Source: Microbacterium forte
GTDB lineage: Bacteria; Actinomycetota; Actinomycetes; Actinomycetales; Microbacteriaceae
NCBI RefSeq assembly: GCF_031885415.1
Contig: NZ_CP116871.1
Span: forward strand, 2,666,001 to 2,730,000
DNA: 64,000 bases
Direction of reading: 5' to 3'
Shown here: piece by piece, positions 57,696 through 60,625 of the stretch
How the letters are laid out: each line of letters starts with the position of its first letter
How positions within the stretch are numbered: the first letter of the stretch is position 1
The notes under the pieces: model-generated
What the model was told of the DNA's origin: nothing
Seen by the model: the letters and a program-made list of their open reading frames with translations, nothing else
The model's database searches: none
Position numbers and translations under genes: made by a program

Positions 57696-58124
57696 CTAGG
57701 CGGCACCGAAGAATCGGGTTGCGATGTCGGCCACCTCTTTGTCGAGCGTGTCGATGCGCGCGGTCAGTTTCGAGTCGAGAGCGTCGATCCTGCCGTTGAG
57801 CCGCCACTCGAGCGACTCGATCTGTCCGCTGAGCCGGTGGTCGAGTGCTTCGATCTGTCCGCTGAGCCGGTGGTCGAGTGCTTCGATCTGTCCGCTGAGC
57901 CGGTGGTCGAGTGCCTCGATCTTGCCGGTGAGTCGGTGGTCGAGTGCCTCGATCTTGCCGGTGAGCATTCCTTCGAGCCCGCTGATCTGTCCGGTGAGCC
58001 TGCCGTCGAGACGGCCGATCTCAGCCCGGATGACTCTGCTGAACTGCGTGGTCATGACCGTCACGACCCCCAGCATCGTCGCGGAGAACACCGCGATGAG
58101 CGTCCAGATCTGAGGTTCGTTCAT
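57696..58124 (-). CDS. Membrane-anchored hendecad coiled-coil repeat protein
   Basis: From ATG 58124 (better spaced to GGAG than ATG 58130) the product has 142 residues. One membrane helix (about 6-26) is followed by nine 11-residue units of the form L-D-x-R-L-x-G-x-I-x-A, ending in a short tail. Eleven-residue periodicity suggests a near-straight or right-handed coiled coil. Five units are 33-bp near copies in the DNA. Such repeats resemble tail-fibre or surface stalks, but no partner is visible. Function unknown. Confidence 0.75.
   Translation of the reverse strand: MNEPQIWTLIAVFSATMLGVVTVMTTQFSRVIRAEIGRLDGRLTGQISGLEGMLTGKIEALDHRLTGKIEALDHRLSGQIEALDHRLSGQIEALDHRLSGQIESLEWRLNGRIDALDSKLTARIDTLDKEVADIATRFFGAA
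57819..57983 (-). repeat. Five 33-bp tandem repeats
   Basis: Units start at 57819, 57852, 57885, 57918 and 57951 with an exact 33-base period. The first three are almost identical. They encode the L-D-H-R-L-S/T-G-Q/K-I-E-A unit. Copy number may vary by slippage or recombination. Confidence 0.9.
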
Positions 58125-58296
58125 CGTCATGTCTCCATCCTGTGAACGTCGCGCCAGAATGGCAGTGTTGCGTGATCGGACGAGGCCCGACCGCGATGAT
58201 CCCGCAGGCGTGGGGGCGGATCGAGCGGTAGGCGAGTCTGTGCAGGAGGGGTCCTCGCACGCGTCGGCCACCCGCGCGCGGTATCGTTGCGACACG

Positions 58297-59724
58297 ATGA
58301 GGATGACGCGTCGCACACTGCTGATGGGCGCCGGAGCCGGTGTCCTGGGAGTCCTGCTGGCCTCCTGCACGCCCGAGCCGGCGCCGTCGCCCACGCCCGA
58401 TCGCTCGCCCACTCCGAAGCCGACCGCGGGTGCGATCACCCCCGCCGCGTTCGCCCGCAGCTCGTGGACGACCGACCCGTTCGCGCTCGGCGCTGCGAGC
58501 TTCACTCCGGTCGGCACACAGGCGAGGGCCCGCGAGGCGCTGGCCGAGCCGGTCGACGACCGGCTCTTCTTCTCGGGCGAAGCGACCGACGTCGAGGCGC
58601 CGGGCACGATCGCCGCCGCGCTCCGATCCGGTGATCGAGCCGCCGACGAGCTCGTTCGCGCCGCCGACAGCGGTGAGCGCGTGGCGATCGTCGGCGCAGG
58701 TCTCGCCGGTGCCGCCGCCGCTGCCCGACTCGTCGCCGAGGGGCTGCAGGTCACGGTGTTCGAGGCGCGTGACCGCATCGGCGGACGCGTGCACTCGGTG
58801 GTCGACGACATGGCCTGGCCCTTCCCCGCGCAACTGGGCGGCTGGCTGCTCGGCTCGTCCGACGACGTCCTGCTCGAGACTCTCAACGCCCGTGACATCC
58901 GGACGGCTCCGATCTCGGGTTCGCTGTGGCGATCGACTGACGGAGACGTCGAGCCGGTGCCGATCGAACCTGTGCAGGCGGCGATCGCCACCGCCCAGCA
59001 GGGGCCGACCGACTCGTCTCTCGAGGATGCGCTGACGGCAGCGGGCGCTGATCCTGACGAGCCGGGACTCGCGGCGCTGCTCGCTTCGATCGCGGCCGCA
59101 TCGGGGGCCGATGCCTCCGACGAGTCGACCTGGTTCCCCCCTCGGCTTCCCACCGACGAGCTGGTGGCACCTCTCGGCGACCTGACCCCGGCCCTCGACG
59201 AGCTTCTCGAGGGCGCGAAGCTGAGCCTCTCATCGCCCGTCAGTCGCGTGGCCTACGACGACGCCGGCGTCAGCCTCGGCATCGCCTCGGGGGAGTCGCT
59301 GTCGTTCGACCGGGTCCTGATCACGGTGCCGCTCGGAGTGCTGAAGGGCGAGGGCGTGGAGTTCGCTCCGGCGCTGCCCTTCGGTCATCGCGGTGCCATC
59401 GCCGAGCTCGGGATGGGACTCATCGAGACGGTCTGGCTGCGCTTCGACGATCCTCTGATCGTGTCGGCACCCGAGCCCGAAGGTGACCCTGAAGGCGACG
59501 CCGAAGAGGGTGCTGACGCCGAGTCCGCTGCGACGCTCTGGCACGTCGTCGGCGGCGATGCGCTGATCCGCACCTGGATCAACCTCGCACCGGCCACGGG
59601 CGAGAACGTCGTGGTGGGCATCGTCGGCGGAGAAGCGGCAGCCACGTTCGCCGAGATGAGCGAGCAGAAGGCGCTCGAGGCGGCGATCGCCTCGCTCGCA
59701 CCGTTCCTCACGGCACCGGCCTGA
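58297..59724 (+). CDS. Tat-type lipoprotein flavin amine oxidase with apparent circular permutation
   Basis: From ATG 58297 the product has 475 residues. A twin-arginine-like leader (T-R-R-T-L-L-M-G-A) ends at lipobox L-L-A-S-C (about 24). Next comes a block normally found at the C-terminus of amine oxidases: S-S-W-T-T-D-P-F-A-L-G (about 54), L-A-E-P-V-D-D-R-L-F-F-S-G-E-A-T (about 83-98), then G-T-I-A-A-A-L-R-S-G-D-R-A-A. Only then does the usual N-terminal FAD motif appear, V-G-A-G-L-A-G-A-A-A-A-A-R-L (about 130). The protein stops after G-E-A-A-A-T-F-A-E-M-S, exactly where the moved block would start. So the domain order is permuted; substrate unknown. Confidence 0.85.
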   Translation: MRMTRRTLLMGAGAGVLGVLLASCTPEPAPSPTPDRSPTPKPTAGAITPAAFARSSWTTDPFALGAASFTPVGTQARAREALAEPVDDRLFFSGEATDVEAPGTIAAALRSGDRAADELVRAADSGERVAIVGAGLAGAAAAARLVAEGLQVTVFEARDRIGGRVHSVVDDMAWPFPAQLGGWLLGSSDDVLLETLNARDIRTAPISGSLWRSTDGDVEPVPIEPVQAAIATAQQGPTDSSLEDALTAAGADPDEPGLAALLASIAAASGADASDESTWFPPRLPTDELVAPLGDLTPALDELLEGAKLSLSSPVSRVAYDDAGVSLGIASGESLSFDRVLITVPLGVLKGEGVEFAPALPFGHRGAIAELGMGLIETVWLRFDDPLIVSAPEPEGDPEGDAEEGADAESAATLWHVVGGDALIRTWINLAPATGENVVVGIVGGEAAATFAEMSEQKALEAAIASLAPFLTAPA

Positions 59725-59775: not shown

Positions 59776-60453
59776 TCAGACCTCCGGGCGCTCCTGACCG
59801 CGTCGCCGCATCCGGCTGACGAGCACGATGAACGTCGCGACGAGCGCGAAGATCGCCAGCGCCACCCCACTGGTGAGCAGGAATTCGGGAGGCCCTGATA
59901 CCTGTCGGGGGTCGAGGAAGTAATACGGGTACCACCCCACAGACGGCCCGCGCCACATCGTGACACCGCCCCACGCGAGCGGGAAGGTGAGCGCCGTCGG
60001 CACCACCCACCAGGGCACGCCGCGGTGCCCCGGTGTGAGCACCCAGGCGAGGGCGGTGCACGCAGGCAGCCAGAAATGCAGCACTTGATCAGACCATGGC
60101 ACGTCGACGCGGATGCCGCGGAGCCCCGCCTGCCAGACGATCAGCGCGAAGGCGAGTCCTGCCGTGATCGTCCAGGTGAGCACGAGCGCCAGCGCGACCG
60201 TGAACCAGCGAGGATCCGTCGCCCGGATGAAGGCGAGCACCGCGCCGATCAGCAGCACGACCACGAGCGCGCAATTGGACTGGACCGTCAGGTACGCGAA
60301 GAAGTTCTCTCCCGCGATCGATCGGGAGCTCAGGCCCCAGAACAGCCGGTGCACGAGCGCGACGGTGCACACTGCGGCCGTGGCCAAGCGCAGCACGCCG
60401 AACGCCGATCGTGCCCTCACTCTCGCCTCGTGCCCCTTTCCGGCTGTGCGCAT
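59776..60453 (-). CDS. Pr6Pr family membrane protein
   Basis: From ATG 60453 the product has 225 residues and six membrane helices with F-F-A-Y-L-T-V-Q-S-N, L-H-F-W-L-P and W-Y-P-Y-Y-F-L-D-P motifs, as in the Pr6Pr (FAR-17a/AIG1-like) family. Function is unknown; human relatives hydrolyse unusual fatty esters. A TAGACT -10-like box on the minus strand lies at 60497-60492. Confidence 0.82.
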   Translation of the reverse strand: MRTAGKGHEARVRARSAFGVLRLATAAVCTVALVHRLFWGLSSRSIAGENFFAYLTVQSNCALVVVLLIGAVLAFIRATDPRWFTVALALVLTWTITAGLAFALIVWQAGLRGIRVDVPWSDQVLHFWLPACTALAWVLTPGHRGVPWWVVPTALTFPLAWGGVTMWRGPSVGWYPYYFLDPRQVSGPPEFLLTSGVALAIFALVATFIVLVSRMRRRGQERPEV

Positions 60454-60625
60454 CGTCGTCCAGACGGCGCATCTCCCATCCGGCGAGTCTACGGAAGACG
60501 CGGCGAGCGGGGCTGCGACGAGCTGCGCACAGGAGACGGAAAAGTCGTCTGAATAGCGTGGAAGGAGGGATAGCCCCTGCTCCGCGCCTGGCGCGCGGTG
60601 TCCTGCCACGAAGGAACACCTCCTC

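Follow-up and report, generated by a model that had tools for sequence, protein, structure and literature searches.

The window analysed here is a 64,000-nucleotide stretch of the Microbacterium forte genome (NZ_CP116871.1, positions 2,666,001 to 2,730,000), which is a single complete contig of 3.75 Mb. It contains a gene for a protein of the flavin amine oxidase family whose flavin adenine dinucleotide (FAD) binding parts follow each other in an unusual order. The gene and its parts, in window coordinates, are:

58297..59724, + strand: permuted FAD amine-oxidase-type gene, 475 amino acids, predicted twin-arginine translocation (Tat) lipoprotein (open reading frame, profile searches, structure prediction)
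58297..58368, + strand: twin-arginine leader with lipobox LLASC (Cys24) (sequence; alignment A1, 32 rows)
58369..58440, + strand: Pro-rich tether, residues 25–48 (sequence; low predicted local distance difference test score, pLDDT, in the model)
58441..58665, + strand: moved FAD block, residues 49–123 (W..DP, LAEPV, FFSGEAT, SG.RAA), equivalent to the C-terminal FAD segment of ordinary amine oxidases
58669..58896, + strand: Rossmann FAD part, residues 125–200 (GAGLAG, E156, GGR), N-terminal in ordinary relatives
59179..59706, + strand: core and substrate part, residues 295–470 (phmmer, part profiles)
59428..59430, + strand: codon of Thr378, aligned with the Lys that faces flavin N5 in LSD1, PAO and MAO (alignment to LSD2)

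The protein opens with MRMTRRTLLMGAGAGVLGVLLASC, and the Tat lipoprotein leader of the original prediction is present as a motif, a twin-arginine plus lipobox pattern in which T4, R5, R6, L21 and C24 are invariant across the 32 rows of alignment A1. The moved block spans SSWTTDPFALGAASFTPVG...LAEPVDDRLFFSGEATDVEAPGTIAAALRSGDRAADEL and is followed by the Rossmann motif VAIVGAGLAG. Its motifs W57-T-T-D60-P, L82-A-E-P-V, F91-F-S-G-E-A-T97 and S111-G-D-R-A-A thus all stand N-terminal to G133-A-G-L-A-G. The usual feature of PF01593 proteins, a C-terminal FAD block, is replaced here by an N-terminal one, and the chain terminates just past the core part, at the ordinary core-to-block junction.

A phmmer search of the PDB matched the protein to human LSD2 as three pieces in rotated order: query residues 125–166 correspond to LSD2 335–376, 298–468 to 535–692 and 49–119 to 703–773, the block piece with an independent E value of 5.7e-6. 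Residues 51–125 also matched the C-terminal segment of a PAOX chain. With hmmscan, PF01593 matched residues 136–471 at 152.5 bits (cut-off 19.8, E 2.8e-44). This match covers profile positions 1 to 365 of 443, so the profile tail is absent at the C-terminus. Despite this score the permuted gene was not among the three own-genome matches listed when 40 genomes of the class were searched with PF01593, and the NCBIfam matches listed for database protein P0001 (25 of 44) were all far under cut-off. We also built part profiles for the FAD block (C), the Rossmann part (N) and the core (M). They gave the order C-N-M in the window protein versus N-M-C in ordinary relatives. The original prediction, that the block follows the leader, precedes the Rossmann motif and is missing where the chain stops, was thus borne out by motifs, homology pieces and profiles alike. 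Short tails agree with this: rotated proteins among database matches P0242–P0361 stop 4–15 residues beyond the core profile (median 5, n = 101), and 13 ordinary proteins have a gap of 3–10 residues between core profile and block. In the remaining rotated sequences the tail has a median of 7, exceeds 25 in eight and reaches 49 at most. The linker between block and Rossmann part is also short, the hidden Markov model ends lying 4–12 residues apart (median 6; 399 C-N-M sequences, repeated loci included).

Structure prediction had been proposed as a check. Monomer models of two distant permuted members were confident across the entire folded chain and gave a fold like that of the ordinary enzyme. 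In the window protein the ten-residue mean pLDDT is 96–99 from residue 51 in the moved block, a confidence that suggests a location of the block at the FAD site. The model is structurally similar to the amine-oxidase fold, and the structural alignment stops where expected for a permuted chain. The ordinary succession of Rossmann part, core/substrate part and C-terminal FAD block would thus have been turned into block, Rossmann part and core, with the cut in the loop preceding the W-x-x-D-P strand and a short linker joining the old last helix to the first Rossmann strand. The same FAD pocket would be rebuilt inside one molecule, FAD binding being predicted from the observed order, the modelled fold and their conservation. 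Given its twin-arginine lipoprotein leader, the protein would be expected to take up FAD and fold in the cytoplasm before becoming anchored on the outside of the membrane.

The FAD-binding residues are kept. In the 70 permuted proteins of alignment A3, G133, G135, G138 and G162-G163-R164 are invariant and E156 is found in 68; the G-E-A of the block is kept in permuted proteins as well. The ratio of nonsynonymous to synonymous substitutions (dN/dS, Nei-Gojobori type count) between the window gene and nine relatives is 0.17–0.36, which indicates purifying selection.

Homologues with the same order, another proposed check, were found in numerous actinobacteria. Among the database matches listed for the window protein (120 of 1201), 77–100% of the query is aligned and all have the rotated order by part profiles save P0086, whose start is missing. 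P0001–P0241 comprise 240 rotated proteins and P0086; P0228 is counted as rotated, its apparent second block being a 5.2-bit overlap within the core. P0242–P0361 comprise 107 rotated proteins (five cut short, C-N only) and 13 ordinary ones. As the searches were seeded with a rotated protein or junction, these tallies are uninformative on overall frequency, which we estimated by whole-genome searches with the block–Rossmann junction as query. The junction is present in 97 of 247 genomes of the genus (95 full matches at E ≤ 2.4e-29 and two partial; the next matches have E about 1e-12). Full matches occur in 100 of 299 genomes of the family, from 30 of 85 genera (G258 and G433, partial or interrupted, were left out). 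At the level of the order 21 of 347 genomes carry it, 4 of them outside the family; for the class the count is 25 of 345, 13 of them beyond the family, spread over 6 families (G897 and G1153 are cut by contig ends), and for the phylum 10 of 346, with 5 outside the class in 4 families. Junction matches total 13 coded families. Matches to the block only were ordinary-order proteins wherever loci were fetched (part profiles). Taken together, the rotated homology, the two confident models, the structural alignment and the wide conservation support the predicted circular permutation, and we put at about 0.82 the probability that the window gene encodes a natural circular permutant of the flavin amine-oxidase fold, from the LSD/polyamine-oxidase side of the family.

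Four candidates were rejected in these searches. L004, a locus from a metagenome-assembled genome (MAG) of Deltaproteobacteria matching at 26% over residues 51–449, and G1140 (L091), matching over 4–119 with an internal TAG, have the ordinary order by part profiles. An own-genome match at 3523011–3523370 (query 54–177) is not a second permuted copy; it covers the Rossmann part only, at the start of an apparent phytoene-desaturase reading frame (by eye). The fourth was the second block of P0228. The partial match G433:C16:40376-40630 contains two in-frame TGA codons and is perhaps a decayed permuted gene.

As judged by eye, a twin-arginine leader plus lipobox starts the rotated proteins of Microbacteriaceae. 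Among the printed ones of other origin, the majority likewise carry a twin-arginine leader, in some cases lacking the lipobox Cys (e.g., L058, L059, L062–L064, L086–L088), and L057 and P0315 have no clear leader. A separate leaderless rotated group consists of P0122–P0241 and L053–L056, with named matches in Kineosporia, Kineococcus, Actinoplanes, Catenuloplanes, Catellatospora and kin. The block of the eight printed members starts 4–20 residues from the protein start, e.g., MPIVPVAYAVSRWGEDPWS. Within this group, P0178 has an internal short tandem repeat in the core, P0158 has a Ser/Gly-rich core insert, and in family f15 a class-V aminotransferase reading frame (PF00266; L055:197-1465, + strand) overlaps the start of the permuted gene, a possible pathway lead for the leaderless type. 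Named matches of the third search include Euzebya rosea, an Ilumatobacter sp. and an Acidimicrobiales MAG. Permuted P0246, P0271 and P0295 come from MAGs labelled Thermoproteota, Nonlabens and Granulosicoccus, labels that may reflect transfer outside Actinomycetota or binning errors.

The 13 ordinary proteins among the nearest matches are 56–75% identical to the rotated junction query over 45–53% of its length, and 10 of the 12 printed carry a twin-arginine leader (the exceptions are P0326 and P0327). P0335 of Mycolicibacterium tusciae, for example, shares the leader with the rotated proteins and has the order N-M-C, with the same sort of breakpoint loop (PNPTGSLVTRWAADPFA). This loop is also alike in ordinary P0327 (ALRTIYGPAIPEPAAYALTRWAADPFA) and rotated P0242, which ends in ...ALRAAYG and whose block starts with PTAALVTRWAADPLA. 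No duplication intermediate with a block at both ends was detected by part profiles in P0001–P0361 or the scanned loci. Trees of 104, 105 and 76 proteins required 3, 6 and 4 order changes. Names were removed by hand between trees (35 before the second and 29 more before the third), and the first set omitted ordinary proteins whose part scores were weak. Repeated rotation at one breakpoint, or a reversal, is possible, if less probable than a single event. Besides the order changes, this would fit the forced single rotated clade being 33 and 14 log units worse in the second and third sets. Yet the single clade was 2.5 log units better in the first set and was rejected in none (p-AU 0.549, 0.122 and 0.28). 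The three trees agree with one origin or several, of which one is the simpler reading.

The original label of amine oxidase fits the fold and family and is otherwise the less secure part of the original interpretation. Oxidase activity is doubtful, as the position aligned with the flavin-N5 Lys of LSD2 is Thr378, and the window protein thus lacks the lysine associated with O2-using oxidases. In the first tree set this column is Lys in 28/28 ordinary proteins, 16/16 leaderless rotated proteins, 7/7 from other classes and families f35 and f37, and 8/9 of the f51/f48/f54/f43 group; it is Lys in 7/24 other Microbacteriaceae and 0/20 of the window's genus (18 Thr, 1 Ala, 1 Ser). P0001–P0121 have 117 Thr, 2 Ser, 1 Met and 1 Ala, and P0122–P0241 have 118 Lys, one gap and one protein without a core match. 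With Lys kept in ordinary and leaderless rotated proteins, it was probably lost after the rotation, within Microbacteriaceae, with Thr as the commonest replacement. The genome also encodes an ordinary paralogue (G000:C1:945428-946678), its best PF01593 match, with ordinary order, the Lys present ("FNKIFIQF") and no leader by eye.

LSD1 and LSD2 (KDM1A/KDM1B) are nuclear and have extra domains; their block is C-terminal in contrast to that of the window protein, and LSD2 has Lys where the latter has Thr378. Maize polyamine oxidase (1b37) and yeast Fms1 share its fold and FAD motifs. They have the ordinary order and known substrates, and the maize enzyme has Lys300 (structure entry titles). An analogy may be drawn with NicA2 and Pnao of Pseudomonas putida S16, exported dehydrogenases of the family that use a cytochrome c (PMC9396064, of which a part was available; no rotation is mentioned there). 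Unlike for these, no cytochrome gene was found among the examined window neighbours.

One neighbour is conserved:

59776..60459 (start codon provisional), − strand: Pr6Pr-family membrane protein (NF038065), convergent neighbour conserved in Microbacteriaceae (profile and tblastn searches)

It lies 3′ of the permuted gene and matched NF038065 with E 4e-24 and no Pfam family above cut-off. By tblastn, a Pr6Pr gene lies beside the permuted gene in 41/41 distinct Microbacteriaceae permuted loci (repeats of the window and L014 removed) and in 0/21 permuted loci from other families; most of the latter extend far less than 1 kb past the end of the gene. Of 119 genus genomes (taken as G000–G118), 44 have both genes, one has the permuted gene only, none Pr6Pr only and 74 neither, with Pr6Pr called at E ≤ 3.2e-73 (Fisher p 5e-32, kinship ignored). 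The permuted-only genome, G108, is 79% complete and has a partial match. All 44 pairs are convergent on the same contig, with the junction match within 2.7 kb of Pr6Pr. Weak Pr6Pr matches (E 1e-21 to 2e-22, 30–38% identity) in G009, G053, G072 and G097, which lack the permuted gene, and at a second place in G075 were not counted. The two genes are mostly gained or lost together, and they may function jointly.

The permuted gene comes after dnaJ and hspR in some Microbacterium relatives, with the whole dnaK-grpE-dnaJ-hspR row in L001–L003 and the window. Between hspR and the permuted gene, the window has a small coiled-coil-like reading frame (57696–58139, − strand) with a 33-bp tandem repeat (5.8 copies, 87% matches). 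A relative occurs at the same place in L015, L018, L019, L020 and L041, and not in L001–L003, L014, L016, L017 or L023.

Our leading guess, held at slightly less than even odds, is that the window enzyme is a membrane-side dehydrogenase, which would oxidise an amine-like substrate and pass electrons to an acceptor other than O2; help from the neighbouring Pr6Pr protein is a more tentative suggestion. A combined reading, with repeated rotation at one loop (or rotation and reversal) in actinobacterial, often Tat-exported enzymes plus a lysine-free, lipid-anchored Microbacteriaceae dehydrogenase unit with Pr6Pr, is distinctly unlikely. Several points weigh against our interpretation. Contact of the block with FAD is proposed from model confidence, and FAD binding and enzyme activity are predicted. 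The aromatic-cage positions are altered (A67, F69), so the protein might not act on amines at all. As far as the accessible part of PMC9396064 describes, NicA2 and Pnao retain the lysine (K340 and K345), which makes its loss neither the only nor the usual path to a dehydrogenase, and human MAO A loses no activity through K305Q (PMC8009472, seen in part), so that the lysine is not strictly required. The 7/24 other Microbacteriaceae proteins that keep Lys do so at Pr6Pr loci, which makes any link between the two traits a loose one, and convergent genes point to joint function less strongly than an operon would.

The second choice, unlikely in our estimate, is that the protein is permuted and binds FAD but in this branch does not act enzymatically on amines, being a binding, scaffold or sensor protein. 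Such a role would suit the Microbacterium clade, where Thr usually stands for Lys and Ala for the first cage aromatic, and where "WLLG" has taken the place of "W[IV]HG"; the low dN/dS and the retained GxGxxG, E156, GGR and block G-E-A argue against it. Somewhat less likely still is a classical O2-dependent amine oxidase that copes without the lysine. The fold, the FAD motifs, the K305Q result and the database label "flavin monoamine oxidase family protein" on some relatives would fit this. However, Lys is universal in the ordinary relatives above and, in the part of PMC8009472 available, K305M and K305S cut the kcat of MAO A about 200- and 100-fold, K305M still being reduced by substrate and slowly reoxidised by O2; by our own comparison Thr is nearer Ser than Gln. 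In the accessible text of PMC12272882 this lysine is present in nearly all family members. Regarding the rotation itself, a domain-swapped dimer, with each moved block filling in the FAD site of the partner subunit, would be favoured by the short linker, but the confident monomer models make it very improbable. An assembly error, frameshift or split and duplicated gene mimicking a permutation has only the odd order in its favour and can be dismissed, because the rotated order is conserved in independent genomes, including 97/247 of the genus and unrelated assemblies, the host contig is complete, and P0001–P0361 include no protein with a block at both ends once the P0228 match is judged noise.

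To our knowledge, whole cofactor-binding enzymes are rarely circularly permuted in nature. Searches of open-access paper listings found no description of a rotated amine oxidase or flavoprotein, well studied as the amine-oxidase fold is; the part of PMC11334425 available mentions a circularly permuted FMN-bind protein, whose fold differs. Since ordinary and rotated proteins form pairs up to 75% identical across roughly half of the junction region, comparing close pairs could test what a rotation costs, how it arises and what follows from it. In biocatalysts of this fold, the new termini would give tags, anchors or partners another point of attachment. The linked Pr6Pr gene, for whose family we found no paper in the open-access literature, provides a lead into a membrane-protein family, and the loss of the O2-handling lysine is a naturally occurring test of what turns a flavoprotein into an oxidase.
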